Shown here in pieces: positions 5,838 through 40,702 of a DNA stretch of 64,000 nt. The notes under the pieces are model-generated. The model saw only the letters and a program-made list of their open reading frames with translations. It had not been told where the DNA came from and did no database searches. Position numbers and translations under genes: made by a program. Position 1 is the stretch's first letter. The number at the start of each line of letters is the position of its first letter. The stretch is from Kiritimatiellales bacterium (GTDB taxonomy: Bacteria; Verrucomicrobiota; Kiritimatiellia; Kiritimatiellales; Pontiellaceae), in contig QKAU01000012.1 in assembly GCA_003246265.1 (NCBI GenBank), positions 1 to 64,000 of the forward strand, given 5' to 3'.

Positions 5838-5927
5838 TATCCGTATCTGGTCGGGAAAGTAGCCGGGCCAAGGAGGGCATCCCACGTGCGGATGTGCTGG
5901 ACCAGGCAAAAAGGAAGGGAACCGGGG

Positions 5928-11024: not shown

Positions 11025-11074
11025 CCTGGGTGAAGTGTGTTGGGGATGGAATCCACCATCCGGACGGGAGACGC

Positions 11075-17173: not shown

Positions 17174-17282
17174 ACACCGATTGATGACATGAATACTCAA
17201 CGATTGCACTCGGGCAATCTCTAACGGGTTGCCGCTGTGCCAAAGGTGGAAATGCGTTTCCTCCGCGGAAAAGAGGGAAAAG

Positions 17283-19925: not shown

Positions 19926-20220
19926 GAGCGGCCGGATGGGTGATCCATCGGGCCGGCGCGGGTTCGCTGGCGCGGGCAGCTTGGCCGGTTTGGCCGGCCC
20001 CAACCCTCCTTTCAGCGGCACCGGAAGCATGCCGTTGCCTGCTCCCTTTGCGTCTCAATCGACCGGTGCGGGTGGTGTCCGGCAGGACCCGGATGAGCAT
20101 GATCCGCATGGTTTGTTGCAGAATTGCCTGTGGCATCCATACTGGATTGGTGCTTACATCCGTGGTTGGGCTTGAACCATCGGTCGGGCGCTCGTGCCCG
20201 GTCTGTTCAGGGATGCCGGT

Positions 20221-23200: not shown

Positions 23201-23718
23201 CCACCGCAACCGGAAGCGACACGGCCACCATGACCATCCTCGTGGATCCGCCGCCGGCGGAGGAGCTGGCCAACGATGATTTCGAGGGGGGCGACCTGGG
23301 CCGCTGGCTGGATGCCGGTGCCGATTCGCGGTGGCTGGCCAACCCCTCATGGTCGATTGGTACCGCCTGTGCGCACATTCGAGGCGGCAGTGCATCTTCC
23401 AACATCACGCTGGCCCACCCGCTCGACCTCGCCGCGCGAACACGGCTTGCCGTCGAATTCTCCTACATCTGCAACGGCATGGAGACGGGCGAGGATTTCT
23501 GGCTGCAGTTCAGCGGCGACAACGGTACGAGCTGGACCACCGTCGCCACCTACGTGGCGGACACGGATTTCACCAACGGTGCGCGGCGCTATCCCCGGGT
23601 GGTCCTCGACAGCACCAGCCATGCCTTTACCGGAAATGCATTGGTCCGGTTTGTCTGCGATGCGTCGGACACCAGCGACAACGTCTACCTCGACAATATC
23701 CTTCTCCTTGCCGAATAG
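20221..23718 (+). CDS. Large secreted clan GH-A glycoside hydrolase (GH42/GH50-like)
   Basis: The start at 20221 (MVARNAQLI) has AGGGA at 20209 and gives a signal peptide. The frame also stays open to an upstream GTG at 20194. Order in 1165 aa: a (beta/alpha)8 catalytic region (about 150-560) with acid/base candidate E302 in SNEPVF and nucleophile candidate E490 in YDSEWHGF; a Rossmann-like middle domain (about 575-700) resembling the GH42 trimerisation domain; a Ca-loop/GGDPTN module (about 805-915, ending LFAKLLVEE); a He_PIG domain (about 920-1010); and a C-terminal jelly-roll-like domain (about 1015-1165). Such enzymes are beta-galactosidases or beta-agarases. The family call is by motif pattern only. 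The 295-nt upstream gap has neither regulatory element. Confidence 0.75.
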   Translation: MVARNAQLISLAAAVALFSPSGRCGIYSGAVTAGAYDQLRTDLQERSTALSNKVAEARQAGIVTDYASVSLVTIGLFRELYVPWDRANPNEIDAMYQAKPWIGANDPVYAALGADGLPFDELADCIEVADAAIAELDLQLAGTLFLQPPPDFSSGQVVLDGSHYEQYGKVVFPHYFFWHPFQEEVMQAFGRSGEGYYSVMDMGSSNTINYTKRDNFIALMTDQDAANRAPIQFFLGHKVYGTNSWHKIEHPDAFNVGRRLFTDYDIDYPWVTNWLDFLFLEEVAPAVRFCRKQSRVHMLSNEPVFSIRAGGVDAERGVSAFTCGKFGTWLEGKYTTISNLNAVYAASHPGFLDAATSYYAPGIGVDTNLQGGPVWYDWCRFNMDRVNEWFAYLHNRAKAVDPEGRTHIKLMGERSMHAEFHDEGLDFEAIARLVDIPGADNQTNPARGEYDERLHARDWRDRYHMEWVKQSIMLDFVKSIAPDKPFYDSEWHGFSASRWRDFHMEPAYVRCALWMAMTHGVSAINAWVWNRRDDGSIDPRADFIGTTLTQPLQLDAWGRTMKEINAHADAFASLVPARRYYMVYYSQDAAIQDRTYTGEMESVYEALKLLNIPVGFATSSELENLDVESQTLVVSPTGFMSDDDLAGLQAFAAAGGKIVLVGAAASFLKDELGFDRSGGSGLSTYAAIDLGGVEAMADALATALAARRPEMPVEILVADTNGTPRYGVLASQYEACASGNQTISLINLGKDARRVELKLYGAHPAGITNMVTGQAFPNSFTMEPQEALLLHLAYGGSNNRLWNSFVSAYGLDGSKGGNQDGDGRCDWDEYVFGGDPTNASAAGAAPLLDPGSGDLRFDIRNDPVLRAHVLATSDLSDGAWTTNESFVAPSGDGTMMATNSLVGTGPAQLFAKLLVEEGNRPPAFFADPFGKPRANAGVAYGGSLDCDAADPEFDPLAFSKLAGPDWLDLASSGELGGIPSETDVGLNVFTVQVATATGSDTATMTILVDPPPAEELANDDFEGGDLGRWLDAGADSRWLANPSWSIGTACAHIRGGSASSNITLAHPLDLAARTRLAVEFSYICNGMETGEDFWLQFSGDNGTSWTTVATYVADTDFTNGARRYPRVVLDSTSHAFTGNALVRFVCDASDTSDNVYLDNILLLAE

Positions 23719-25816: not shown

Positions 25817-27718
25817 ATGAATAAAACAACCGATGGCAAGAGACGCGGAGTGGTCAAGGGTGCGCCGAGCGGCTTCGTGGTGAGCCTGCTGTTCCACGCG
25901 GCGGCTTTCCTGATCGCCGGAGCCTTTGTTGTATTCACGGTGGTGAACAAGGAGGAGCAGCGTTTTGTTCCGCCCAAGCCGGTGGATCGGCCGAAGATGA
26001 AGCTCAAGAAGCCCAAGGTCCAGGTCAAGAAGAACACCAAGCCCCGCTCCACCACGCGCATCGTGGCGAAGGTCCGGCAGGCCAGCATGCCCGAGATCCA
26101 GCTGCCCGAGATGAGCGGCATCGGCGAGGGGCTCGGGACCGGCGGGCTCGACGGCCTCAGCATGATGCCGGACCTGACGACCGAAACCTTCTTCGGCAAT
26201 GCGCAGTCGATCGGCAACGACTTCGTAGGCACCTTCTACGATTTCACGCGGGACCGGCTGGGCAAGCCTACGCTGCTCGCGCCGGAAAACATGTTCCAGA
26301 AGGTCAAGGACTTCATGGTCAAGGGCTGGAATCCCAACGTGTTCTCCCAGTACTACCGCTCCCCGAACAAGCTCTACGCCACCTTCTTCTGCGTCCCTAC
26401 CGAATACTCCACCCTCGGGCCGGCCGCGTTCGGACATCCCGAAGCATCCAGCTGGTGCTGGATCGTCCACTACAAGGGCAAGCTGGTCTACAAGGACGAC
26501 ATCACCTTCCGCTTCTGGGGGCAGGGCGACGACTACATGATCGTGCGGGTGGACGGCCAGATCGTGCTGATCGCCTGCTGGCCCCAAAGCGCGGAACCCT
26601 ACTATACCCAGCTCTGGCGTTCGACCTCGCCGGACAACCGCATCTATCCGCTGGGCAACAACCGCTCCGTGGTCGGCGACTGGGTCGAACTGAAGGCCGG
26701 GGAGCCGAAAGACATGGAAGTGCTCATCGGCGAGGGGAAGGGAGGGCTCTTCGCGGCCCTGCTGACGGTCGAGGTCAAGGGGGAGAAGTATGACCAGAAC
26801 CCCTTCCTGGGCGGGCCCACGCTCCCCATCTTCAAGACCGAGGAGTTGAGCCAGAGCATGGTCGAGGACATCGGGAACATGCTCCACGAAGGGGACGCCT
26901 GCCTGACGAACGGACCCGTCTTCAAAGACTACGAATCGCGCCAGGCCCCGGCAGTGGCGGTCGAGCCGGTCGCCGCTCCCGAACCGGAAACCGCAGTGCC
27001 GCCAGCGGTGGATCCTCGAGCCACCCGGGTGTGGACCTCCGTTGACGGGAAGACGATGGAGGGGGAATATGTCACGAAGCTGGGTAACCAGGCGGTGATC
27101 CAGGTCGGCAAGGGCAAGCAGATCAAGATTCCGCTCGACCAGCTTGCCGGGGAGGATCGCAGCTTCATCGAACTCGAGAATCCCCCGGAACTCTACATCG
27201 ATTTCTACAAGGCCAGCGACCAGATCCCGCCCCCGCACGAAAGCCCCTACGTCGACCTGCACTTTCCCATCCGGATCAGCGACTTTACCTTCGGCGTCCA
27301 GATCAAGCAGAAGACGACGGATCCCTACAACCACCGGCTCCACGTCGAATACTTCGCCATCGGGGAGGAGGTGGACGGGAACAACTATGTCCTGCTCGAC
27401 CACAGGGATACCTGGTTCGACCTCAACGAGGCGAACAAGCGCGAGTTCCAGTTCCTGGGCGACAAGGTGCGGGTCCAGAGCAAGGCCACTTGGCCCAATT
27501 CCCCTATGCGCGGCGTCAAGTACGGCGGATACCTGGTCATCGTGACCGATGAGCGGGGGAAGGTGGTGCAGTACGCCGCCTCCAGCAAGTTCCTCTACGA
27601 CTATGTCGAGAACCTGCGGAAGATCCCTCTGACCAGGCACTTCGACCGGGAATGCTTGCGCGTCGCCCCTCCGCGGCCCACGTTCGACGATCGCAACCCC
27701 TACATCTGGAACCGATAG
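25817..27718 (+). CDS. TonB-like membrane-anchored protein with PA14-like and SHD1 domains
   Basis: This 633-aa protein has one N-terminal membrane helix (about 20-42) followed by a Pro/Lys-rich stretch (VPPKPVDRPKMKLKKPKVQ), as in TonB. The usual C-terminal TonB domain is replaced. Residues about 140-310 look like a PA14-type beta-barrel (DDITFRFWGQGDDYMIVRVDG). Residues about 404-450 fit an SHD1 domain (RVWTSVDGKTMEGEYV, then IKIPLDQLAGEDRSFI). A further beta domain completes the protein. It is presumably anchored in the inner membrane with the bulk in the periplasm. Binding of glycans or partner proteins is plausible; its function is not known. A family 2 element precedes it. Domain calls are by eye. 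Confidence 0.7.
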   Translation: MNKTTDGKRRGVVKGAPSGFVVSLLFHAAAFLIAGAFVVFTVVNKEEQRFVPPKPVDRPKMKLKKPKVQVKKNTKPRSTTRIVAKVRQASMPEIQLPEMSGIGEGLGTGGLDGLSMMPDLTTETFFGNAQSIGNDFVGTFYDFTRDRLGKPTLLAPENMFQKVKDFMVKGWNPNVFSQYYRSPNKLYATFFCVPTEYSTLGPAAFGHPEASSWCWIVHYKGKLVYKDDITFRFWGQGDDYMIVRVDGQIVLIACWPQSAEPYYTQLWRSTSPDNRIYPLGNNRSVVGDWVELKAGEPKDMEVLIGEGKGGLFAALLTVEVKGEKYDQNPFLGGPTLPIFKTEELSQSMVEDIGNMLHEGDACLTNGPVFKDYESRQAPAVAVEPVAAPEPETAVPPAVDPRATRVWTSVDGKTMEGEYVTKLGNQAVIQVGKGKQIKIPLDQLAGEDRSFIELENPPELYIDFYKASDQIPPPHESPYVDLHFPIRISDFTFGVQIKQKTTDPYNHRLHVEYFAIGEEVDGNNYVLLDHRDTWFDLNEANKREFQFLGDKVRVQSKATWPNSPMRGVKYGGYLVIVTDERGKVVQYAASSKFLYDYVENLRKIPLTRHFDRECLRVAPPRPTFDDRNPYIWNR

Positions 27719-27862: not shown

Positions 27863-27881
27863 GATGCCAAAGGAGGAGCCG

Positions 27882-28826
27882 ATGTCGCTGGTAAAATCCA
27901 AGGAAATCTTCGCCGAGTCGTCCTTTCCCATCACTGTGGATACCGTGGTGGAGCGGACGCTGATCCAGAAGGAGCTGCACCGGCACGAATACTTCGAGAT
28001 GCTCTATGTCGAACGCGGAACCCTGGTCAACCGGTTCAAGGGGGACGAGGTCAAGTTGAAGGCTGGCGACCTGCTGATCATGAAGCCCTACGTACTACAC
28101 GTGCTTGAAGACCGGATGCCCAGCAACGCGCGCAAGGCCTACTGCCTCAGCTTCCTGCCCCAGGCCATCGACTACGGCATCCAGTCGCTCGAGGAGCTGA
28201 AGGTCTCCAAATCGCCCAACAAGTATTTTTTCAAGCCCTTCCTGTCGCTCACGGAAGAGGGCAGTTCCGCGGTGAAGCTCAGCATCGAGCCGGAGCGGAG
28301 GGAGGAGCTGGCGGAGCTTTTTTCCAACCTCAAGCTGGCAACGCACGACTACAGCGACAAGGGCCTTGCCCTGGCCCGCTGCCACCTGCTCAACCTGCTC
28401 ATCCTGCTGGCGGAGCAGCACGACAACAACATCCTCCTCAAAAAGCCGGTGAAGATCGAGCTCGAGGTGTCGGTCTCCCGCTACCAGGACGGCCTGCGCA
28501 AAACGCTCAACTACATCCACGACCATTTCACCGAGCCGCTGTCGCTCGAGGAGATGGCGGCCATGAGCGGCGCGTCGGAAACCTACTTCTGCCGGTTGTT
28601 CAAGCACGAGACGGGAATGTCTTTCCTTAACTATGTCAACGGGTTGCGCATCGAGCGCGCCTGTGTGCTGCTGCGGGATACCTGCGACAACGCCCTGGAC
28701 GTCTGCTATAAGGTGGGATTCAACGACTATACGCACTTCGGCCGACAGTTCAGGAAGAACACCGGCATGTCTCCGGCCGACTACCGCAAGCGGAAGCAGG
28801 GCCTCCGGCAGATCCGCGAGTTCTAG
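27882..28826 (+). CDS. AraC-family transcriptional regulator
   Basis: This 314-aa regulator has an N-terminal cupin sensor (about 1-140; HRHEYFEMLYVERG and LKAGDLLIMKPYVLH) and a C-terminal double helix-turn-helix (about 205-310; LSLEEMAAMSGASETYFCRLFK and the signature region CYKVGFNDYTHFGRQFRKNTGMSPADYRK). The start is placed at 27882 because AGGAGG (27871-27876) lies 5 nt upstream; the alternative ATG at 27864 would put that site inside the gene. It sits just before the sugar-catabolic operon at 29034 and is a candidate ligand-responsive activator of it, and possibly of the family 2 elements. That target assignment is inference. Confidence 0.93.
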   Translation: MSLVKSKEIFAESSFPITVDTVVERTLIQKELHRHEYFEMLYVERGTLVNRFKGDEVKLKAGDLLIMKPYVLHVLEDRMPSNARKAYCLSFLPQAIDYGIQSLEELKVSKSPNKYFFKPFLSLTEEGSSAVKLSIEPERREELAELFSNLKLATHDYSDKGLALARCHLLNLLILLAEQHDNNILLKKPVKIELEVSVSRYQDGLRKTLNYIHDHFTEPLSLEEMAAMSGASETYFCRLFKHETGMSFLNYVNGLRIERACVLLRDTCDNALDVCYKVGFNDYTHFGRQFRKNTGMSPADYRKRKQGLRQIREF

Positions 28827-29033: not shown

Positions 29034-30068
29034 ATGAATGAGTTGTTGCTTCCGATCATGATCGTGGTTCTGGCGAGTCTGTTCCAGGGAACCTTCGGCA
29101 TTGGCATGAAATACGTTAAGCCCCTGGCCTGGGAGGCCTGGTGGATTGTCCACGCAACGGTCGCCATGGTTGTTTTCCCCCTGGCCTGGGCCCTCCTCGT
29201 GGTTCCCGACCTCTGCGGAGTCATCGCCCAGGCGCCCACCAACGAGCTCGTGGCCGGCGCGGCGCTGGGCTTCGCCTGGGGTATCGGCGGCATCATGTTC
29301 GGCGTCTCCGTCGGCTACATCGGCGTGTCGCTCACCTACGGCATCGTCATGGGCCTCTGTTCCATCGCCGGCGCCCTGATCCCGTTCTTCCTGCGCTTCG
29401 ATTCCATCAACAAGGCCAGCATCCCATTCATCCTGGCAGGACTGGCCCTGCTGGCCGTCGCCGTCTACATCGTGACCATCGCCGGCCTCCGGCGCGACAA
29501 GAAGCTCGCGGAAGTGGGGGGCGAGATCCAGGGCATCAAGAAGGGCAAGGCGTTCCGGACCGGCCTGGTCATCGCCTCCGCCAGCGGGCTCCTCTCCGCC
29601 ATGCTGGCGGTCGGCTTCGACAACACCGTTGAGATCGGAAAACTCGCCGAACAGGCCGGGGCCATTCCCCGCAATACCGCGCTCGCCCGCTGGGTAGTCG
29701 TGCTGGCCGGGGCCTATCTCATGAACGCGGGCTATGCCGTCATGCTCCTCATCAAGAACAAGTCGTTCGGTTCGTTCAAGACCCCCGGAATGGGCAAGGC
29801 CCTCAAATGGGCCGTCATTGCCGGGCTGCTCTGGTTCGCGGCCCTCGGCACCTACGGGCAGGGCGTGGCACTCATGGGCGACATGGGCACCATGATCTGC
29901 TGGCCGACCATGCTCGGCCTCTCGCTGATCGTCAGCAACATCGCCGCGCTCATGACCGGCGAGTGGAAGGGGATGGCCGGGCCGCTCAAGCTCATGTCGC
30001 TCGGTGTCCTCGTGATCATCGTGGCAACGGTCCTCATGTCCTACGCCTCAACGCTGAAGGGTGCATAG
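29034..30068 (+). CDS. RhaT-family sugar/proton symporter
   Basis: This 344-aa integral membrane protein has about ten hydrophobic segments and an N-terminal pattern (LFQGTFGIGMKYVKPLAWEAWW) like the L-rhamnose-proton symporter family of the drug/metabolite transporter superfamily. It is the first gene of the catabolic operon, 2 nt before the cycloisomerase. There are no rhamnose isomerase, kinase or aldolase genes nearby. The neighbours make anhydrogalactose or another deoxy/anhydro sugar a more likely cargo than rhamnose; that is inferred from context. ATG at 29034 is preceded by a GGAGAT purine stretch. Confidence 0.82.
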   Translation: MNELLLPIMIVVLASLFQGTFGIGMKYVKPLAWEAWWIVHATVAMVVFPLAWALLVVPDLCGVIAQAPTNELVAGAALGFAWGIGGIMFGVSVGYIGVSLTYGIVMGLCSIAGALIPFFLRFDSINKASIPFILAGLALLAVAVYIVTIAGLRRDKKLAEVGGEIQGIKKGKAFRTGLVIASASGLLSAMLAVGFDNTVEIGKLAEQAGAIPRNTALARWVVVLAGAYLMNAGYAVMLLIKNKSFGSFKTPGMGKALKWAVIAGLLWFAALGTYGQGVALMGDMGTMICWPTMLGLSLIVSNIAALMTGEWKGMAGPLKLMSLGVLVIIVATVLMSYASTLKGA

Positions 30069-30070
30069 CC

Positions 30071-31282
30071 ATGATCCAGGCCATCAAAACCTACCGTTTG
30101 CAGCACAAGCTCGAGGAGTCGTTCGGCTTCTCCCAGTGGCACTACGACAAGCGCAACGCCCTGATCGTCGAAATCATCGACGAATCGGGCGCCTGCGGCT
30201 GGGGCGAGTGCTACGGCCCCGCCACCGTCACGCAGAACGCCATCGACACCTTCTATGCGCCGCTGCTGATGGGCTGGGATCCGCTCCGCAACGAGGCGGC
30301 GTGGAACCACTGCTGGCGCTCATCGCTGGACTTTGCCATGAAGGGGCCCATGATGGGCGCCATCTCCGGCATCGACATGGCCCTGCTCGATCTCAAGGGG
30401 AAGCTGCTGGGCGTCTCCGCCTCGGAGCTCATGGGCGGCCGCGTGCGCGACCGGGTCGAGTGCTATGCCACCGGCATGTACTTCCGGCAGCAGTCCGAGC
30501 AGCAGCTGCTCGAAACCATCCTGTCCGAGGCGGCGGACTATGTCGGCCAGGGCTACAAGGCGCTGAAGATCAAGGTCGGCAAGAACATGGCCTTCGACAA
30601 GAAACTCATCGAAGCCATGCGCCGCACCTTCCCGGACTCCCGGCTCATGGCCGATTCCAACCACGCCTACGACCTGCCCGAGGCGATCGAGATCGGCCAC
30701 CAGCTGGCGCGCTACGACTACAAGTGGTTCGAGGAGCCACTCTCCCCGTCGCATCCCGCGCTCTTCCGCCAGTTGGCGGACAAGGTCGATGTCCCGATCG
30801 CCACCGGCGAATGCGAACAGACCCGCTTCGGTTTCCAGGAACTGCTCTCCAAGGGCGGCGTGCAGATCGCCCAGCCCGACCTCGCCTACTGCGGCGGGCC
30901 GACCGAGGCGGTCAAGATCCGCACCGTCGCCGCCTCGATGGGGATCAATACCGTGGCCCACTGCTGGGGCACGCAATTGAACCTTGCGAGCGCGCTGCAC
31001 TTCCTGGCGACGACCTATGTCGAGCCGGGGCGCGCTGAAATCACCGAGCCCCTGCTCGAACGCGACCTGACCTGCAATCCGATGCGCGATGAAATGTATG
31101 CCGTGGGCCTCGAAATCGAGTCGGGATTTGCCAAGGTCCCCGTAGCCCCGGGCCTCGGCGTGGAACCGGACCGCGCATCCATGGAACAATTTTGTGTCCA
31201 GAAAACGGAGAAGCACCATGTCGGGAAAAATGCACCCCATGCTGATCAACGGCGAAAAGCTGACCGCGAAGAGGTCGTTTGA
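30071..31282 (+). CDS. Enolase-superfamily cycloisomerase, probable 3,6-anhydrogalactonate cycloisomerase
   Basis: This mandelate racemase/muconate-lactonizing-type enzyme (403 aa) would convert 3,6-anhydrogalactonate to 2-keto-3-deoxygalactonate in the cytoplasm. Visible are the K166-x-K168 catalytic lysines (LKIKVG), metal ligands D195 (MADSNHAY), E221 (WFEEP) and E247 (ATGECEQ), and H297 (VAHCWG). From memory, GWGECYGPA, SGIDMALLDLKGK, YATG, QPDLAYCGG and HCWGTQLNLASALHF closely follow the galactarolactone/anhydrogalactonate cycloisomerase group. A rhamnonate, fuconate or galactonate dehydratase remains possible. The last about 25 residues (KTEKHHVGKNAP onward) are low-complexity and overlap the next gene by 65 nt, which suggests loss of an earlier stop codon. 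It lies between transporter and dehydrogenase genes in one operon. Confidence 0.8.
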   Translation: MIQAIKTYRLQHKLEESFGFSQWHYDKRNALIVEIIDESGACGWGECYGPATVTQNAIDTFYAPLLMGWDPLRNEAAWNHCWRSSLDFAMKGPMMGAISGIDMALLDLKGKLLGVSASELMGGRVRDRVECYATGMYFRQQSEQQLLETILSEAADYVGQGYKALKIKVGKNMAFDKKLIEAMRRTFPDSRLMADSNHAYDLPEAIEIGHQLARYDYKWFEEPLSPSHPALFRQLADKVDVPIATGECEQTRFGFQELLSKGGVQIAQPDLAYCGGPTEAVKIRTVAASMGINTVAHCWGTQLNLASALHFLATTYVEPGRAEITEPLLERDLTCNPMRDEMYAVGLEIESGFAKVPVAPGLGVEPDRASMEQFCVQKTEKHHVGKNAPHADQRRKADREEVV

Positions 31283-32618
31283 CGTTGTAAACCCCGCTAC
31301 CGGCACCGTGATCGGCCAGGTGCCGGAGGTCGATGCCGAAAGCATCCAGCTGGCGCTCAAGGCTGCGAAGCGCGGCTTCGAGGTCTGGTCGAAGAAGACC
31401 CCGGCCCAGCGGAAGGCCGTGATCCTGCGCTATGCGCAGCTGCTGCAGGAAAACAGCGAACGCCTCATCGCCCTGCTGATCGAGGAGACCGGAAAGCCGC
31501 GCGACAACGCGGAATACGACTTCGGCATGCTCGGCAACTGCCTGCACTTCTTCGCCGAGGAGTTCGAGCGGCTCGACCAGCCCGTGCTCCACGATCCGGA
31601 CGGACGTTTCCTGCACTACATACTCCGCCAGCCGCTGGGCGTCTGCGTCGGGATGCTGGCGTGGAACTTCCCGCTGCTCAACGTGGCCTACAAGATCGGC
31701 CCGGCCTTGGCCGCCGGCTGCTCCGTCATCCTCAAGCCGTCGTCCGAAACCCCGCTGGCATCGCTCGAGGTGGGCTATCTGGCCAGGGAGGCCGGCCTGC
31801 CCGACGGCGTCATCAACATGATCACCAGCACCGACCACAGCGTTACCCGGGCGCTGATGCAAAGCGACATCCCGGCGATGGTCACCATGATCGGGTCGAC
31901 CCGCGGCGGGCTGGAGGTCATGAACGCGGCCACGACCAGCGTAAAGCACTTTTCCGTCGAACTGGGCGGCAACGCCCCGGTCGTCGTCTATCCGGACGCC
32001 GACATCGTCGCTGCCGCGAACAAGGTGGTGGACCTCAAGTTCGCCAACTGCGGGCAGGTCTGCGTATCGCCGAACCGCTGCTTCGTGCATGAATCGGTCT
32101 ACGACGAATTCGTCGCCGCCGCCAAGGCGCGTGCCGCCCGGATCACCATGGGGCCGATGATCTCCGACAAGGCCCGCCGCTATGTACTCGGTCTCGTCGA
32201 ATCCGCCATCGCCGACGGGGCGGAGGTGGTATGCGGCGGCAAGGCGGTCGAGGGTCCCGGCTACTTCATGGAGCCGACCATCCTGAAGAACGTGGTGGTC
32301 AGGATGAAGGTGGCCTACGAGGAGATCTTCGGACCGGTGCTCCCGATCATCAAGTACACCGATGCCGACGACGAGATCGCGCTGGCCAACAATACGCAGT
32401 ACGGCCTCACCGCCTACGTGTTCACCTCCAGCCTCGGGAAAGGCCTGCGCGCCGCGCGCGATATCCAGGCCGGCAGCGTATGCGTCAACGAGGCGCACTA
32501 TTCCGTCCAGCTGCCCCATGGCGGCCTCAAGCAGAGCGGCGTCGGCAAGGATTGCTCGCGCTACAGCCTCGAGGAATACTTGACGGTCAAACGCGTTTCG
32601 GTGTTACTGGAAGGCTGA
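31218..32618 (+). CDS. Aldehyde dehydrogenase, probable 3,6-anhydrogalactose dehydrogenase
   Basis: This 466-aa NAD(P)-dependent aldehyde dehydrogenase has the MLAWNFPLLN cofactor region, general base E248 (ELGGNAP) and catalytic C282 (FANCGQVC). The start at 31218 (MSGKMHP) has GGAG at 31207; the open frame to 31194 overlaps the previous gene even further. In the anhydrogalactose route it would oxidise the aldehyde to 3,6-anhydrogalactonate, the substrate of the neighbouring cycloisomerase. A lactaldehyde or succinate-semialdehyde dehydrogenase would look alike by eye, so the substrate call rests on the operon. Confidence 0.85.
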   Translation: MSGKMHPMLINGEKLTAKRSFDVVNPATGTVIGQVPEVDAESIQLALKAAKRGFEVWSKKTPAQRKAVILRYAQLLQENSERLIALLIEETGKPRDNAEYDFGMLGNCLHFFAEEFERLDQPVLHDPDGRFLHYILRQPLGVCVGMLAWNFPLLNVAYKIGPALAAGCSVILKPSSETPLASLEVGYLAREAGLPDGVINMITSTDHSVTRALMQSDIPAMVTMIGSTRGGLEVMNAATTSVKHFSVELGGNAPVVVYPDADIVAAANKVVDLKFANCGQVCVSPNRCFVHESVYDEFVAAAKARAARITMGPMISDKARRYVLGLVESAIADGAEVVCGGKAVEGPGYFMEPTILKNVVVRMKVAYEEIFGPVLPIIKYTDADDEIALANNTQYGLTAYVFTSSLGKGLRAARDIQAGSVCVNEAHYSVQLPHGGLKQSGVGKDCSRYSLEEYLTVKRVSVLLEG

Positions 32619-32638
32619 ACCTGGAAGGAGCTGAAACC

Positions 32639-33286
32639 ATGTCGTTCCCTGTGGATATGCTGCAGCGGATGGAAAAGTCGGCGGTCGTGGCCGGCTTTTC
32701 CGTCGAGAAGACGGAGCATGCGGTTCCCCTTGCCAGGGCGCTGCTGGCCGGAGGCATCGATGTGGTTGAACTGACCCTGCGAACGCCTGCCGCCATGGAG
32801 GCCGTCAAGGCGATCGCCCGGGAGGTGCCGGAAACCCTGCTGGGGGTCGGCACGATCCTGACGCCCGCGCAAGCCCGCGAAACGAAGGCGGCCGGTGCGC
32901 ACTTCGGGGTTTCTCCGGGCATGAACCCCCGCGTCATCCAGGCCGCCAGCGAAGCGGGGCTGCCGTTTGCGCCGGGCATCTGCACGCCGTCCGACCTGGA
33001 GGCGGCCATCGAACTGGGCTGCCGTTTCGTGAAGTTCTTTCCGGCCGAGGCGAGCGGCGGCGTGGCCTACCTCAAGAGCATGGCCGCCCCCTACAAGCAT
33101 CTGGGGATACGATATTTCCCGCTGGGCGGGTTGAATGCCGGCAACATGGCCGACTATCTGGCCATGGACGACGTTCCCACCATTGGCGGTTCGTGGATCG
33201 TGAAAAAGGAACTGGTCGACCGCGGGGACTGGGAGGGCATTACGGCCCGCGCCGCCGAGGTCATGGCCATTTGCAGGAAGGGATAG
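32639..33286 (+). CDS. KDPG/KDPGal aldolase
   Basis: This class I aldolase (215 aa, normal length) splits 2-keto-3-deoxy-6-phospho-gluconate or -galactonate into pyruvate and glyceraldehyde-3-phosphate. The Schiff-base lysine is K132 in RFVKFFPAE; VELTLRT carries the conserved Glu. The start at 32639 has GGAAGGAG (32623-32630) at 8-nt spacing. It stands between the dehydrogenase and the kinase whose product it would cleave. The epimer (gluconate or galactonate) is set by context and favours galactonate. Confidence 0.9.
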   Translation: MSFPVDMLQRMEKSAVVAGFSVEKTEHAVPLARALLAGGIDVVELTLRTPAAMEAVKAIAREVPETLLGVGTILTPAQARETKAAGAHFGVSPGMNPRVIQAASEAGLPFAPGICTPSDLEAAIELGCRFVKFFPAEASGGVAYLKSMAAPYKHLGIRYFPLGGLNAGNMADYLAMDDVPTIGGSWIVKKELVDRGDWEGITARAAEVMAICRKG

Positions 33287-33289
33287 GAT

Positions 33290-34381
33290 ATGGGCAACAC
33301 CGTAGTCACGTTTGGGGAAATCATGTGCCGCCTGGCTTCGCCGGATTTCCTGCGTCTGCGCCAGGCGCGCGAATTCGAGGTCACCTATGCCGGCGCGGAG
33401 GCCAGCGTGGCCGCCTCGATCTGCAACTTCGGCGGCTCGGCCCGCTACGTCACCGCGCTGCCGAAGCATGCCTTGGCGGAAGCGACGATGGACACCGTCC
33501 GCGCCGTCGGCATCGATACGCGCTTCATCCTGCGTACCGACAAGGGCCGGCTCGGCCTCTACTTCCTCGAAACCGGTGCCAACCAGCGTCCCAGCAATGT
33601 CATCTACGACCGCGCAGACTCCGCCATCGCCATCACATCGGCCGATCGCTATGACTGGGCATCCATTTTCGAAGGCGCCTGCTGGCTGCACCTGAGCGGC
33701 ATTACGCCCGCCCTCTCGAAAAACGCCGCTGCCGCCACCCTCGTGGCTGCGCAGAAGGCCAAGGCCGCCGGATGCCAGGTGTCGATCGACCTCAACTTCC
33801 GCGGCAAGCTCTGGAAGTGGGATCCGCCGAAAACCTCGCGCGAACTGGCGCAGGAGACCATGCGCGGCATCCTGCCTTTCATCGACGTGGTCATCGCCAA
33901 CGAGGAGGACTGCCACGACGTGCTGGGCATCCGTGCCGGCGATACGGATGTCCATTCGGGCGCGCTCGATACCGCCCGCTATCCGGATGTCGCCCGCCAG
34001 GTGGTCAAGCAGTTTCCGAACATCGGCAAGGTGGCCATCACCCTGCGCGAAAGCCATTCGGCCACCCACAACAACTGGGGCGCCATGCTCTACGACGCCG
34101 CGAAGGAGACGCCGCACTTTGCGCCGCTGGATGCCGACGGCGCCTACAGGCCGTATGAAATCAGGAACATCGTCGACCGCGTCGGCGGCGGCGACTCGTT
34201 TGCCGGCGGCCTGATCTTCGCGTTGACGACGCCCGAACTCGGCGATCCGGCCGACGCGATCCGCTACGCGGTGGCGGCTTCGTGCCTGAAGCATTCGATC
34301 AAGGGCGATTTCAACTTCTCGACCCGTGCGGAAGTCGAGGCCCTGATGGGTGGCTCCGCGTCCGGACGCGTGGTAAGGTAG
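33290..34381 (+). CDS. PfkB-family sugar kinase, probable 2-keto-3-deoxy-gluconate/galactonate kinase
   Basis: This 363-aa ribokinase-family enzyme would phosphorylate 2-keto-3-deoxy-galactonate before aldol cleavage. FGEIMCRLASP is the KDG-kinase-type N-terminus, AGAEASVAASICNFGG binds sugar, and DRVGGGDSFAGG holds the catalytic base D302 (GGGD rather than the usual GAGD). Only three bases separate it from the aldolase stop codon, so the two are translationally close. Together they give a phosphorylative Entner-Doudoroff-type ending to the pathway. Confidence 0.9.
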   Translation: MGNTVVTFGEIMCRLASPDFLRLRQAREFEVTYAGAEASVAASICNFGGSARYVTALPKHALAEATMDTVRAVGIDTRFILRTDKGRLGLYFLETGANQRPSNVIYDRADSAIAITSADRYDWASIFEGACWLHLSGITPALSKNAAAATLVAAQKAKAAGCQVSIDLNFRGKLWKWDPPKTSRELAQETMRGILPFIDVVIANEEDCHDVLGIRAGDTDVHSGALDTARYPDVARQVVKQFPNIGKVAITLRESHSATHNNWGAMLYDAAKETPHFAPLDADGAYRPYEIRNIVDRVGGGDSFAGGLIFALTTPELGDPADAIRYAVAASCLKHSIKGDFNFSTRAEVEALMGGSASGRVVR

Positions 34382-34461: not shown

Positions 34462-36390
34462 ATGAAAAGGTCGGATTTCTTCAGGAAGGGTGCCGAAGGG
34501 GCGGTGGCCGCGGGATTGGTCTCCATGGCGGGACGCGCCGCGGCGGATCCGGGCGAAGGCGCCGGGCGCACCACCGACAACTGGATCCAGGTGGCCACCG
34601 GGGAGCGCGGGCTGCCGGTCCGCAAGAAGTCGGTTGACTGCGACGTCGCGGTCCTCGGCGGGGGTATCGCGGGCGTCTGCGCGGCGGTTTCGGCGGCGCG
34701 CAACGGGGCGAAGACCGTCCTGGTGCAGGACCGGCCGGTCCTCGGCGGCAATGCGTCGAGCGAAATGCGGGTGCACCTCAACGGCGTCAACCACCTGAGG
34801 CCCGACAACTATGCCGAGCGCGAAACCGGGGTCATCGAGGAGATCCTGCTGCACAACCGCTTCTGCAACAAGCAGGAGTCCTGGACGGTCTGGGACCATG
34901 TGCTCTACGACTTCGTCGTGCGCGAACCCAATCTGGAGCTGATGCTCAACACGCAGGCGACCGATGCCGTCATGCGCGGCAATGCGATTGCGGCTGCCAA
35001 GTGCTGGCAGTTGACGACCGAGACGGAAATCACCCTCCATGCGAAGCAGTTCATCGACTGCTCGGGCGACGGCCTGCTGGCCGCCACGGCCGGCGCCGAA
35101 TACCGCACCGGCCGCGAGGGCAAGCAGGAGTTCGGCGAAAAATACGCGCCCGACGAGCCCGACGGCTGGCAGATGGGCTGCACGCTGCTGATGCATTCGA
35201 AGGACATGGGCAGGCCGATGCCCTATTCCCCGCCCTCGTTCGTCCTCAAGTACGAGGCGGAGAAGTCGAACCCGAGACGCAGCATCCAGGAGTTCAAGGA
35301 TGGCATCTGGTGGGTGGAGGTCGGCAGCAAGGGCGACATCATCGCCGAGCAGGAGACCATCCGGCACAAGCTGATGGGCTACATGCACGGCGTCTGGGAC
35401 TACATCAAGAATTCCGGCAAGTTCCCCGAAGCCGAGAACCATGCGCTGACATGGGTCCAGTCGATCCCGGGCCGCCGGGAGTCGCGCCGCTTCATGGGCG
35501 ACTACATCCTGCGCGAAGGCGACCTGGTCGGCCACACCCATTTCGAGGATGCGGTGGCGTTCGGCGGCTGGTCGCTCGACGAGCATTGCTGGGGCGGCAT
35601 CGAGAACCTCGACGATCCGCCGAGCTATTTCCATTACCATTTCAAGAAGGTCTACGAGATTCCCTACCGCAGCCTCTACTCGCGGAATATCGAGAACCTC
35701 TCCTTCGCCGGCCGCAACATCAGCCAGACGCACATCGCACTTTCGTCCTCGCGTGTCATGGCCACCTGCGCGACCATGGGCATGGCGGCCGGCACGGCCG
35801 CCGCCCTGTGCGTCCGCAAGGAGTGCAACCCGCGCGATATCGCCACCAGTCACATCGGCGAGCTCCAGGAGCAGCTGTTGCGCGACGACGCCTTCATTCC
35901 GCACCGCCCGGCCAACGACCCGGAGGACCTGGTCCGCAAGGCGGCGCTGATTGCCGCTTCCTCCACCAAGTCTGGCGATCCGAAGCTGCTGGCCGACGGC
36001 TGGTCGCGCGACTTCGAGGGCGTCGAGCATGGCTGGGAATCGATCGGGCTTCCCGCCGAGGTGCTGCTCGAATGGGCGCAGCCGGTCCGGTTGTCCAGGG
36101 TGGAGATCAAGTGCGACACCAACGTGAAGCGCAACATCATGATGCGCAAGGATTCCAAGGTGAGCTTCAATTACTGGAACGACGTGCCGACCGAGATGGT
36201 GAAGTCGCTGGACGTGGAGGCGCGCGTTGACGGCAAATGGGTGAAGGTCGGGGACAACGGCGACAACCGTACGCGGCTGGTCAGGTTCCGCTTCGACCCG
36301 GTGCGCACCACGGGAATCCGGATCAACCTGAAGGAAACCTACGGGGCCCCGAACGCCAAGCTGTTCGAGGTGCGCTGCTACGAGTCATGA
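34462..36390 (+). CDS. Exported FAD-dependent oxidoreductase with C-terminal discoidin-like domain
   Basis: This 642-aa protein starts MKRSDFFRKGAEGAV, a Tat-like leader. A Rossmann FAD-binding motif follows (VAVLGGGIAGVCAA, about residues 61-75), then VLGGNASSEMRVHLNG and FAGRNISQTHIALSSSRVMATCATMG, as in the FAD_oxidored family common in polysaccharide loci of PVC bacteria and Bacteroidota. The last about 140 residues (VEHGWESIGLPAEVLLEW onward) look like an F5/8-type galactose-binding domain. Substrate and product are unknown; oxidation of a glycan-derived sugar is a guess. The start at 34462 is chosen for its leader; the frame is open upstream. Its stop overlaps the GH2 start by ATGA. Confidence 0.8.
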   Translation: MKRSDFFRKGAEGAVAAGLVSMAGRAAADPGEGAGRTTDNWIQVATGERGLPVRKKSVDCDVAVLGGGIAGVCAAVSAARNGAKTVLVQDRPVLGGNASSEMRVHLNGVNHLRPDNYAERETGVIEEILLHNRFCNKQESWTVWDHVLYDFVVREPNLELMLNTQATDAVMRGNAIAAAKCWQLTTETEITLHAKQFIDCSGDGLLAATAGAEYRTGREGKQEFGEKYAPDEPDGWQMGCTLLMHSKDMGRPMPYSPPSFVLKYEAEKSNPRRSIQEFKDGIWWVEVGSKGDIIAEQETIRHKLMGYMHGVWDYIKNSGKFPEAENHALTWVQSIPGRRESRRFMGDYILREGDLVGHTHFEDAVAFGGWSLDEHCWGGIENLDDPPSYFHYHFKKVYEIPYRSLYSRNIENLSFAGRNISQTHIALSSSRVMATCATMGMAAGTAAALCVRKECNPRDIATSHIGELQEQLLRDDAFIPHRPANDPEDLVRKAALIAASSTKSGDPKLLADGWSRDFEGVEHGWESIGLPAEVLLEWAQPVRLSRVEIKCDTNVKRNIMMRKDSKVSFNYWNDVPTEMVKSLDVEARVDGKWVKVGDNGDNRTRLVRFRFDPVRTTGIRINLKETYGAPNAKLFEVRCYES

Positions 36391-38921
36391 ACAAGCTGGT
36401 CCCGGTTGTTCTCGTCATCGGATCCGCCCTGGCCTGGGGCGCTCCGATCGACTTCAATGAGGACTGGCTGTTTACGGAAACGGATTCCCCCGACTACACG
36501 CTGGCCACCTATCGGCCGGACGGCTGGCGACGGCTGGATCTGCCGCACGACTGGTCGATCGAGAAGGATTTTTCACGGGAACTGGAAGGGTGCACCGCCT
36601 TCATGCCCGGCGGCATCGGCTGGTACACCAAGATGTTCAAGACGCCGATCCAGGGCAACCAGAAGTGCTACGTCATCTTCGACGGCGTCTACAACAACGC
36701 CGAATACTGGCTCAACGGCATGAAGATTGGCGACCACCCCTACGGCTATGCCCCGATCTGGTACGACCTGACCGACCTGCTCGCACCAAGCGGCCAGGAA
36801 AACCGACTGTCGGTGCGCGTCGACCACGGCCGCTACGCCGACTCGCGCTGGTACACCGGCTCCGGCATCTATCGCAACGTCCAGCTGCTCGTCGCGGACA
36901 GGCTGCACATTCCGGTATGGGGTACCTGCATCACCACGCCGGAGGTTTCAGATGACCGCGCCGTGGTCGAGCTGGAGATCGAGGTCCAGAACGACTGTGA
37001 AGAACCGCGCAAGGGCAACGTTGTTACCGGGCTCTTTGACGCCGGGGGCAACATGGTCGCCAGCGTCGGTACCCCCTTCGTTGCCCCCGCGGGCACGCGC
37101 ATCGTTGCGGTGCAGCGCGCGATGGTGCCGAAGCCGCGCCTGTGGGGAATCGACCATCCGCATCTCTACACGGCGAAGACCCGGATCGAAGCGGACGGGG
37201 TCGTGCCCGAAGAACGCGCCACGCGCTTCGGCATCCGCACCATCCGCTTCGATGCCGACAAGGGCTTCTTCCTCAACGGCGGAAACATGAAGGTCAAGGG
37301 GGTCTGCCTGCACCACGATGCGGGCATCGTCGGAGCCGCCGTTCCAAAGGATGTCTGGAAGCGGCGCCTCGGGTGGCTGAAGGAGGGCGGCTGCAACGCC
37401 ATCCGCTGCGCTCACAATCCGCCGTCGGATGAATTCCTGGATCTCTGCGACGAACTGGGCTTGCTGGTGCAGAGCGAGTTCTACGACGAGTGGGACCTGC
37501 CGAAGGACAAGCGCTACAACATGCAGGACAAGGAGGTCGACACCATCACCCGCGGCCACGCGCAGCATTTCCAGCGCTGGGCGGAGACCGACCTGAAGAA
37601 CACCATGCGCTCCAGCCGCAACCATCCATGCATCTTCCAGTGGAGCATCGGCAACGAGATCGAGTGGACCTATCCGGGAAACCGCGAGGCGACGGGTATC
37701 TTCAAGGGCACCGATGCGGGCGACAGGATGGACTGGACGCTATGGCGGACAGAGACTCCGCCGAACACGCCGGAGCAGGTCCGCGAATTCTGGGCGCACT
37801 ATCCGGAACAGACCTTCCGCATCGGCGAAACGGCCCGCAAGCTGGCGGCGTGGACCCGGGAGATGGACGCCACCCGTCCGGTCACAGCCAACTGCATCCT
37901 GCCGACCTCCAGCTTTGAAACCGGCTACGCCGACGTGCTGGATGTGGTTGGCTTCAGCTACAAGCCGGAGAAGTACGACTATTTCCACAAGACCTATCCG
38001 GGCAAGCCGATGATGGGCACCGAAAACGTGCCGCGGTGGTACGAATGGAAGGCGGTCATCGAACGCGACTTCATTCCCGGCCTTTTCCTCTGGACCGGCG
38101 TGGACTACATGGGCGAATGCCGCAAGGGAGATTGGCCGGTCAAGGCCACGCCGCACGGGCCGCTCGACCTGGCCGGCTTCCCGCGGGGCTCGTTCTACCA
38201 GTTCAGGTCTTTCTGGCGCGACGACGTTCCCACGCTGGCCATCTATACGCAAACGGAAACGAAGTCCATCTTCCGGAAGGACAAGGACGGCCGGGCCGTC
38301 GAGAAGAAGAAGGAATACTGGAAGCTCGCCCCGCGCACTTGGCAGGACGTCAATCCGCATTGGAACTATGACGATGGCGAGGCGGCCATGGTCGAGATCT
38401 ACTCCAACTGCGAAGCCGTCGAACTCTTCCTCAACGGCCGGTCGCTGGGCAGGCAGTTCCTCAAGGACCAGGAGGACCGCATCTACAAGTGGCCGGTGGA
38501 CTACGCCGCGGGCGAGCTGGTCGCCATGGGCGTCTGGAACGGTGGAAAGGTCGTTGGAAGCCTTGAAACAACCGGGGCGCCGGCGGCCATCCGGCTGACG
38601 CCCGACCGTGAAAAGATGGCCGCAAACAAGACGGACGTGGTGCACGTCGTCGCCCAGCTGGTGGACGCCCAGGGCCGCGAGGTCAGGCATGTGGATGATG
38701 AAGTCACCTTCCATGTCGAAGGTGCTCATAAATTCCTCGGCACCGACTGCGGCGATACGGCCAGGCTGCTGAACTTCAGGGGCAAAACCGTTCCGACGGC
38801 ATATGGTCGCTGCCTGCTGATGCTGCAGGCCACGGACCAGCCTGCGACATTGTGCATTTCCGCCACGGCCGGAAAAGGAAGTCTGGTATCATCGGCGCCG
38901 GCCGTGGTCGGCGTGGAATAG
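36387..38921 (+). CDS. Glycoside hydrolase family 2 beta-galactosidase-like enzyme, exported
   Basis: This 844-aa enzyme has a signal peptide (1-18), an N-terminal sugar-binding jelly roll (about 20-190), an Ig-like domain, a TIM-barrel catalytic domain (about 300-620) with acid/base E424 in SIGNEIEW and nucleophile E546 in MGTENVPRW, and C-terminal Ig-like domains (about 660-844; FLNGRSLG). The layout matches bacterial GH2 beta-galactosidases. It would release galactose from galactan oligosaccharides, probably in the periplasm. Its start overlaps the stop of the oxidoreductase, so translation is coupled. The sulfatase at 38932 follows after 10 nt. Confidence 0.92.
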   Translation: MNKLVPVVLVIGSALAWGAPIDFNEDWLFTETDSPDYTLATYRPDGWRRLDLPHDWSIEKDFSRELEGCTAFMPGGIGWYTKMFKTPIQGNQKCYVIFDGVYNNAEYWLNGMKIGDHPYGYAPIWYDLTDLLAPSGQENRLSVRVDHGRYADSRWYTGSGIYRNVQLLVADRLHIPVWGTCITTPEVSDDRAVVELEIEVQNDCEEPRKGNVVTGLFDAGGNMVASVGTPFVAPAGTRIVAVQRAMVPKPRLWGIDHPHLYTAKTRIEADGVVPEERATRFGIRTIRFDADKGFFLNGGNMKVKGVCLHHDAGIVGAAVPKDVWKRRLGWLKEGGCNAIRCAHNPPSDEFLDLCDELGLLVQSEFYDEWDLPKDKRYNMQDKEVDTITRGHAQHFQRWAETDLKNTMRSSRNHPCIFQWSIGNEIEWTYPGNREATGIFKGTDAGDRMDWTLWRTETPPNTPEQVREFWAHYPEQTFRIGETARKLAAWTREMDATRPVTANCILPTSSFETGYADVLDVVGFSYKPEKYDYFHKTYPGKPMMGTENVPRWYEWKAVIERDFIPGLFLWTGVDYMGECRKGDWPVKATPHGPLDLAGFPRGSFYQFRSFWRDDVPTLAIYTQTETKSIFRKDKDGRAVEKKKEYWKLAPRTWQDVNPHWNYDDGEAAMVEIYSNCEAVELFLNGRSLGRQFLKDQEDRIYKWPVDYAAGELVAMGVWNGGKVVGSLETTGAPAAIRLTPDREKMAANKTDVVHVVAQLVDAQGREVRHVDDEVTFHVEGAHKFLGTDCGDTARLLNFRGKTVPTAYGRCLLMLQATDQPATLCISATAGKGSLVSSAPAVVGVE

Positions 38922-38931
38922 GAGTCGAAAA

Positions 38932-40539
38932 ATGAAAGCGTCCATCGCAGCGCTGCTTCTCTCGTCGGCGGCCACCGCCTTGGCGGCGCAGCCACCCAAT
39001 ATCCTGTTCATCGGGGTCGACGACCTGCGTCCCGAACTGGGCTGCTACGGCTCCCCGGTGGCGGTCACGCCCAACCTCGACCGGCTGGCCTCCGACGGCC
39101 TGCGGTTCAACCGGGCCTACTGCCAGCAGGCCATCTGCGGGCCGTCGCGTGCCAGCCTGATGACCGGCCTCCGGCCGGATACCAGCGGCGTCGTCCACAA
39201 CTACCTCGACTTCCGCGAGCTCGATCCCGAGGTCGTCACGCTGCCGCAGTATTTCCGACAGCACGGCTACGAGACCGCCTTCCTCGGCAAGATCTTCCAC
39301 GGCCAGCAGACCGACGACGAACACTCCTGGAGCCGTGCGCCCGCCAAGAGCGGCCTGCCCCAGGCCAAGGGGTTCGCGCTGCCGGAAAACATCGCCATCC
39401 AGCAGGAGATGCGGAAGGAGATGTTCGCCAAGTACGGCGATGTGGCGAAATACGGCCTGGCCATGGGCCCCGCCTACGAATGCGCGGATGTTCCGGACGA
39501 AACCTACGAGGATGGACGCAACACGCGCATCGCCATCGATACGATGAAGGAGATGGCCAGGGAGGGAAAACCATTCTTCCTGGCCCTCGGCTTCCACAAG
39601 CCGCACCTCAACTGGATTGCTCCGAAGAAGTACTGGGACCTGTACGACCGCGCGATGATTCCCCTGGCAACGAATACCCACGCCCCGGTGGACGGCGCGG
39701 CGATGGGGCTGCATCCCTCCTTCGAGCTGCGCGTGCGCGACGGCATCCCCAAGGAGGGAAAACCCTTCGACGAGGATCTTGCACGGACCCTGAAGCACGC
39801 CTATCTCGCCTGCGCCAGCTACATCGATGCCCAGGTCGGCCTGATGGTCGATGCGATCGGCGAGGCCGGCCTGCGCGACAACACGATCATCATCGTCTGG
39901 TCCGACCATGGCTGGCACCTCGGCGACATGGGGGTCTGGGGCAAGGCGACGGACTATGAAGTCGCAACCCGCGTGCCGCTGATCCTCTGGGCACCGGGGA
40001 TGCCGAAGGCGGTCCGGGGGCAGGGAAGCGATGCGCTGGTGGAGCTTGTCGACATGTATCCGTCGCTTTGCGAGCTGGCCGGCCTGCCGGTGCCTGCCCA
40101 TCTGGACGGATGCAGCTTTGCTCCGCTGGTGGCCAATCCCTCGGCCCCGTGGAAGAGCGCGGCCTTCAGCCAGTTCCCGACCCCCGCCCTGAGGGAGTGG
40201 GGGTCCATCGCCCTGCGCCCGGCGATGCGCGAAACCTACTTCGGCCCGCTCGTGGAGGAGATGGAGCGACGCATCGAACAGCAGCTGCCCGACGCCTGGG
40301 AACGGACCCTGTTCGAGGAAAACGTGACCGGCTATGCGATGCGTACCGACCGCTACCGTTTCGTCGTGTGGAAGGATGTCGGGAATCCGCGGTCCAAGCC
40401 GCTGTTCATTGAACTCTACGACCACGAAGCCGATCCCCTCGAAACGCGGAACATCGCCAAGGAGCATCCGGAACTCGTCGGTGTCCTGATGGAGCAGTTC
40501 AACCGGGGATGGAAGGGAAACCTGCCGAAGGCCGACTAG
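38932..40539 (+). CDS. Secreted formylglycine sulfatase, iduronate-2-sulfatase-like
   Basis: This 535-aa sulfatase has a signal peptide (1-19), PPNILFIGVDDLRPELGCYG, formylglycine site C69 in CGPSRAS, and SDHGWHLGDMGVWGKATDYEVATRVPL. It is collinear throughout with the sulfatase at 362, a paralogue 37 kb away. TAGGAGTCG precedes the start. It belongs to the catabolic operon behind GH2, which suggests the two act in sequence on sulfated galactosyl ends. The sulfate position attacked is not readable. Confidence 0.93.
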   Translation: MKASIAALLLSSAATALAAQPPNILFIGVDDLRPELGCYGSPVAVTPNLDRLASDGLRFNRAYCQQAICGPSRASLMTGLRPDTSGVVHNYLDFRELDPEVVTLPQYFRQHGYETAFLGKIFHGQQTDDEHSWSRAPAKSGLPQAKGFALPENIAIQQEMRKEMFAKYGDVAKYGLAMGPAYECADVPDETYEDGRNTRIAIDTMKEMAREGKPFFLALGFHKPHLNWIAPKKYWDLYDRAMIPLATNTHAPVDGAAMGLHPSFELRVRDGIPKEGKPFDEDLARTLKHAYLACASYIDAQVGLMVDAIGEAGLRDNTIIIVWSDHGWHLGDMGVWGKATDYEVATRVPLILWAPGMPKAVRGQGSDALVELVDMYPSLCELAGLPVPAHLDGCSFAPLVANPSAPWKSAAFSQFPTPALREWGSIALRPAMRETYFGPLVEEMERRIEQQLPDAWERTLFEENVTGYAMRTDRYRFVVWKDVGNPRSKPLFIELYDHEADPLETRNIAKEHPELVGVLMEQFNRGWKGNLPKAD

Positions 40540-40702
40540 GCCGCGGCGGCAAGGGTATTGGATGGCCGGGGGATGCAATGTCCAAAATATGCCCGGACTG
40601 CCGTTGGGTGACGTAATCGCGCATCTGTTTTACGCAATTGCGGGGTTCAACGCCGGATTCGTCTGCTATGGTGCAGGGGTGGATCGTTGGAAAGGGTGTG
40701 GA

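Follow-up and report, generated by a model that had tools for sequence, protein, structure and literature searches.

A predicted 3,6-anhydro-D-galactose operon with a PfkB-family kinase and an Eda-type aldolase in a carrageenan-related locus of a Kiritimatiellales bacterium

The window analyzed in this study is a 64,000-nucleotide stretch of contig QKAU01000012.1 from a marine, Pontiella-like Kiritimatiellales bacterium (GCA_003246265.1). Five tightly packed genes on its + strand occupy positions 29034 to 34381, and all of their reading frames are open over the positions given here. In order, they encode a RhaT-like DMT sugar/H+ symporter (29034-30068; PF06379, RhaT 3.5e-23), an enolase superfamily cycloisomerase with a KxK base (putative dauB, 30071-31213; MR_MLE_N and MR_MLE_C, 4e-54), an ALDH superfamily dehydrogenase (putative dauA, 31218-32618; Pfam Aldedh, 1e-141), an Eda/KDPG-type aldolase (32639-33286; PF01081, KDPG/KHG aldolase, 2e-60), and a PfkB-family kinase (33290-34381; PF00294, 9e-27). 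The Pfam scores of all five products were above cut-off. The intergenic gaps are 2, 4, 20, and 3 nt in gene order, in agreement with the original prediction of an adjacent and nearly gapless set of these five genes, and because almost no gaps separate them, they likely share one predicted transcript. A sigma-70 promoter scan, which was uninformative here, found no promoter. An AraC-family regulator gene (27864-28826, + strand; Pfam HTH_18/AraC_binding) lies 207 nt upstream of the operon. Directly upstream of the AraC gene, the protein encoded at 25817-27718 has a TonB-like N-terminus (a membrane helix, then a Lys/Pro-rich stretch) and no Pfam match.

Genes resembling those for carrageenan degradation, all on the + strand, surround the operon. 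On the upstream side, two S1_19-like carrageenan sulfatases with an extra N-terminal region (5886-8816, matching 9hh3/6bia at 1e-106 to 1e-108; 11030-13738, matching 6bia/6b0j, iota-carrageenan sulfatase, at about 1e-145) are followed by a GH16 endo-hydrolase (17229-19088; PF00722) and a GH167 exo-enzyme (20194-23718; 6ptm, 2.1e-68; 9whd, GH167, 4.5e-66), a family that releases beta-neocarrabiose (PMC6923384). GH167 and S1_19 sulfatases have both been characterized in Pseudoalteromonas PS47. The GH16 product is possibly a carrageenase and not a typical kappa-carrageenase: it matched 9ijc at 1.5e-56 (our literature search returned no paper on this entry) and kappa-carrageenase 9xkt at 1.5e-11, and it scored 51 bits with the NCBIfam K_carrageenase model, whose cut-off is 350. 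On the downstream side, there are a PF12831 FAD-dependent oxidoreductase that is likely part of the carrageenan locus (34462-36390), a GH2 beta-galactosidase (36387-38921; best PDB match 5t9a, 1074 bits), a sulfatase whose best match was the arylsulfatase 6hhm (38932-40539; 63% identity to the sulfatase adjoining the dau operon of Pontiella sulfatireligans), and a further sulfatase nearest to S1_8A (40562-42220). CAZymes of the genome were searched one at a time, and the single GH127 (DagA-like) was located outside the window, on contig C26, where it adjoins sulfatases, a LacZ-type GH2, and two GH16 genes. This GH127 shows 68% identity to that of Zobellia uliginosa and 71% to a GH127 from the dau locus of P. 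sulfatireligans; among NCBIfam models, it scored best with aceric acid hydrolase, below the cut-off. A query with Zobellia DagB, run with no positive control, had no match in the genome.

A search of all PDB sequences placed 5olc first for the cycloisomerase encoded at 30071-31213 (E 4.5e-96, 43% identity). This entry is Zobellia DauB, the 3,6-anhydro-D-galactonate cycloisomerase, and the catalytic residues named for DauB (PMC5698469) are conserved in the alignment (K168, D195, E221, E247, and H297). In the DauB tree of 59 rows, the clade of the window, which comprises sequences from Kiritimatiellota, Verrucomicrobiota, Planctomycetota, and Gammaproteobacteria including Colwellia echini, was sister to the Zobellia DauB clade, and both DauB clades were apart from AtGCI, VejACI, RhmD, and DgoD, with long outgroup branches. 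Seventeen positions are common to both DauB clades at ≥95% and different in AtGCI, including C248 and E249 directly after the metal ligand, and the 20s loop differs too. Because the patterns with which loci were fetched overlap positions 20-25 and 48, agreement there arises partly by construction, whereas R83, Y137, A199, C248, E249, and G320 lie outside the patterns. A structure model built from the family alignment (pLDDT 94) had a TMt of 0.97 to 5olc. A fold search with this model ranked 4hpn (AtGCI) first and 5olc second, and the structure search alone gave no separation of DauB from AtGCI. From the match and the conserved residues, we infer the reaction of a 3,6-anhydro-D-galactonate cycloisomerase for this product.

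The dehydrogenase encoded at 31218-32618 had 267 PDB matches, the best of which was 6pnu, reported in the DauA work on Pseudoalteromonas PS47 (PMC6923384). Its E-value was 9.7e-112 vs 2.6e-96 for the next match, a lead of 15 orders of magnitude, and the identity to PS47 DauA was 40%. In the dehydrogenase tree, which had two ALDH outgroups, the product grouped with the DauA rows (support 100/99). The same two clades appeared as in the DauB tree, with PS47 DauA in the other clade. The best match and the operon context point to a 3,6-anhydro-D-galactose dehydrogenase. Overall, DauA and DauB of the window are 40-43% identical to assayed enzymes, and we know of no assayed member of their own clade.

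The symporter encoded at 29034-30068 is 49% identical to the one adjoining dauB in Z. uliginosa, and ZGAL_3157, the Zobellia symporter at the corresponding position, was induced 7.0 log2 on D-AnG (PMC5698469). Position and homology suggest that the product may be a D-anhydrogalactose importer. The AraC gene probably regulates the dau operon, from a CgrA-like position; its product shares just 26% identity with the Z. uliginosa counterpart, and homologues with 56-70% identity adjoin dau genes in loci L004, L006, L007, and L010.

Together, these features make it very probable that the operon serves the uptake and catabolism of 3,6-anhydro-D-galactose from carrageenan. The anhydrogalactose pathway proposed in the original prediction is accordingly supported and narrowed to the D enantiomer, with Zobellia DauB (5olc) as the best solved match of the cycloisomerase and PS47 DauA as that of the dehydrogenase. 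The proposed food, a red-algal galactan, narrows to carrageenan, as follows from the D enantiomer, and S1_19 sulfatases and GH167 are present in the window. The sugar would be supplied by the S1_19 sulfatases, GH16, GH167, and GH2 of the window together with the DagA-like GH127 on the other contig, and the RhaT-like symporter would bring it in with protons, judging by its position and homologues. DauA would then convert the free aldehyde to 3,6-anhydro-D-galactonate. In DauB, Lys168 would take the C2 proton, helped by a metal held by Asp195, Glu221, and Glu247, and the 3,6-ether would open to give 2-keto-3-deoxy-D-galactonate (KDGal). Subsequently, the PfkB kinase would phosphorylate O6, and the Eda-type aldolase would cleave the resulting KDPGal to pyruvate and glyceraldehyde 3-phosphate. 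AraC would probably control the operon in response to the pathway.

Other substrates were weighed against this assignment. If the operon served 3,6-anhydro-L-galactose, the source would be agar or porphyran, which fits the neighboring GH2 (36387-38921), closest to 5t9a, which we take to be an agarose-pathway enzyme, and the agar-type operon that the organism also has. We nevertheless regard this use as improbable, since VejACI, the L-form enzyme, matched the 30071-31213 product at only 7e-27 vs 4.5e-96 for DauB, and the true VejACI orthologue (1.6e-183 to 5xd7) sits with the two oxidoreductases needed for the L route on contig C5 (L094 2951-14422), not in the window operon. Besides the VejACI orthologue, the row of genes on contig C5 includes a Zn-dehydrogenase and an SDR, a GH2, a RhaT-like symporter, an aldolase, and a PfkB kinase with 35% identity to the window kinase; one further protein looks like GH117, for which Pfam gives GH43, and another was read as an aldose epimerase. 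These data support a separate operon for L-anhydrogalactose elsewhere in the genome and a D-specific operon in the window. A galactarate or galacturonate operon with an AtGCI-type galactarolactone cycloisomerase appears very improbable: AtGCI was the second-best PDB sequence match (4ggb, 2e-80) and the best by fold (4hpn), but a dicarboxylic intermediate would give a C6 kinase nothing to act on, AtGCI stands apart in the tree, there are differences at positions 248-249 and in the 20s loop, and the genes around the operon encode carrageenan enzymes. Least probable of all is that the operon degrades rhamnonate, fuconate, or galactonate through a dehydratase. The RhaT-like symporter is in line with such a pathway, as are the top NCBIfam raw scores of the 30071-31213 product (arabinonate/galactonate dehydratase), all of them far under cut-off, whereas PDB rhamnonate and fuconate dehydratases matched only at about 1e-21 to 1e-23, Escherichia coli RhmD has Pro and DgoD has Asn in place of the general base Lys168, and the five genes include no SDR-type sugar dehydrogenase or lactonase. 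Grouping with such dehydratases, which the original prediction had named as evidence against itself, was not seen for rhamnonate and galactonate dehydratases in the tree (RhmD, DgoD, and TalrD represented the sugar-acid dehydratases there), fuconate dehydratase being compared by score only.

The D-anhydrogalactose pathway as such is already known, and the difference here is the type of the kinase and aldolase of the last two steps. The nearest fold to the kinase encoded at 33290-34381 (model pLDDT 79) is the Thermotoga maritima KDG kinase 2afb, at 44%, and the aldolase encoded at 32639-33286 passed the TIGR01182 eda model (219 vs a cut-off of 156 bits), failed the DgoA model, and is 28% identical to the Z. 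uliginosa aldolase. By family, both enzymes are thus of the gluco type (KDG/KDPG), unlike the characterized DGOK/DgoA type, to which the Z. uliginosa copy of DauC (DGOK-family) and Zobellia DauD (DgoA-like) belong. The enzyme set of the original prediction therefore stood in that Pfam recovered all five families, while its labels "KDGal kinase" and "KDPGal aldolase" did not hold at the family level. DGOK (PF05035) was absent from the genome in a search whose control gave a hit in E. coli. As a matter of chemistry, not of test, DauB cannot alter C4 when it opens the ring, so its product must be KDGal; it follows that the PfkB kinase must accept KDGal if the pathway runs as drawn and that this kinase and aldolase of gluco families must handle a galacto substrate. 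The 33290-34381 product is thus a candidate KDGal kinase that would replace the DGOK-type DauC.

To place these two enzymes in context, we surveyed 81 dauB loci, namely 80 fetched loci and the window. PfkB with an Eda-type aldolase was found in 22 of them and DGOK with a DgoA-type aldolase in 24; one had DGOK alone, and 34 had neither kinase type within the locus stretch covered. Mixed modules (PfkB with DgoA-type or DGOK with Eda-type) were absent from all 81 loci, and a more distant locus, G001, also has dauA-dauB-aldolase-PfkB. On the DauB tree, there are six changes of the kinase/aldolase label, of which five or more fall on supported branches, and an independent-pairs test of kinase vs aldolase type gave perfect agreement with only 4 pairs (p 0.125). 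The PfkB subfamily of the window occurs in Kiritimatiellota, Planctomycetota, Verrucomicrobiota, and Bacteroidota, and between most PfkB dau loci the kinase is 80-87% identical across phyla compared with about 42% for DauB, which points to kinase transfer. The aldolase is about 50% identical between loci, so kinase and aldolase may have moved separately in some cases, and the kinase tree was too flat for placing the transfer. The kinase is not exclusive to dau loci, as relative G256 has a 77% identical copy with no dau neighbor.

According to a proposal by Ficko-Blean et al. (PMC5698469), species that lack dauC use a non-phosphorylative route. Applied to the window, 2-keto-3-deoxygalactonate from D-anhydrogalactose would be cleaved unphosphorylated and the PfkB kinase would serve another sugar acid, as the G256 copy might suggest. 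We consider this unlikely, given that the kinase lies inside the operon and always occurs with an Eda-type aldolase, never with DGOK (22 vs 24+1 loci). Rather, there are probably two interchangeable, never-mixed KDGal modules, with the window PfkB being a KDGal kinase that arose among KDG kinases and was passed from phylum to phylum; the "lack of dauC" would then reflect replacement by a non-orthologous gene rather than a non-phosphorylative route. The PfkB and Eda-type module therefore offers a candidate explanation for the published observation that some carrageenan loci lack dauC. A figure legend of the paper with this observation includes an unassigned "SK, sugar kinase", which means that a kinase gene had been seen there. 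None of the open-access papers in our literature search named a PfkB kinase in the D-anhydrogalactose pathway.

Comparison with known systems showed how far the likeness extends. The dauABCD region of Zobellia galactanivorans (ZGAL_3145-3159; PMC5698469) resembles the window in having symporter-dauB-dauA behind AraC, GH127, and sulfatases. Orthology of DauA and DauB is at the sister-clade level (DauA about 38% for the Z. uliginosa copy, DauB 43%), and Zobellia has DGOK and a DgoA-type aldolase where the window has PfkB and the Eda type. Unlike Zobellia, the window operon has no adjoining GntP permease, and no DagB was found. DauA and DauB of Colwellia echini, from carrageenan loci (PMC6952198, PMC6923384), belong to the clade of the window with 58-61% identity, yet this organism also has DGOK and a DgoA-type aldolase. 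A further counterpart is P. sulfatireligans F21 (L010), which is reported to grow on kappa- and iota-carrageenan (PMC7356697). It has AraC, symporter, dauB, dauA, aldolase, and PfkB in the same order with 63-87% identity (76-87% for DauB, DauA, aldolase, and kinase), although an MFS permease and two GH127 genes adjoin its operon, unlike that of the window. Neither of two Pontiella papers, one of them PMC7356697, was found to describe the pathway genes, and the word cycloisomerase is absent from their main texts. The VejACI-type L-anhydrogalactose pathway of Vibrio EJY3 and Paraglaciecola, present here on contig C5, has analogous first two steps, but it acts on the other enantiomer with a distant cycloisomerase and two extra oxidoreductases.

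Among 288 genomes of the phylum, nine had a dauB match at 1e-60, and four of these, including that of the window, were ≥75% identical. GH127 was present in the genome studied here and in all three sampled phylum genomes with 75-84% identical dauB. Within the genus, dauB occurred in three of seven sampled genomes (that of the window included), and the same three had the VejACI orthologue. One genome of the Pontiella group may hold complete candidate pathways for D- and L-anhydrogalactose, and such paired operons bear on the recycling of red-algal carbon by anaerobic sediment bacteria.

Further features of the carrageenan-related proteins were observed. The PF12831 oxidoreductase recurs in some dau loci, with 79% identity in P. 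sulfatireligans (L010 642-2558) and 65% in Flavivirga (L047). Three sulfatases (5886-8816, 11030-13738, and L093 1250-4234) have about 450-520 extra residues N-terminal to the catalytic domain, and two of the three carry a He_PIG Ig-like domain. In addition, the GH16 (17229-19088) and GH167 (20194-23718) proteins have in common a 116-residue stretch with 44% identity, which is probably an accessory domain.
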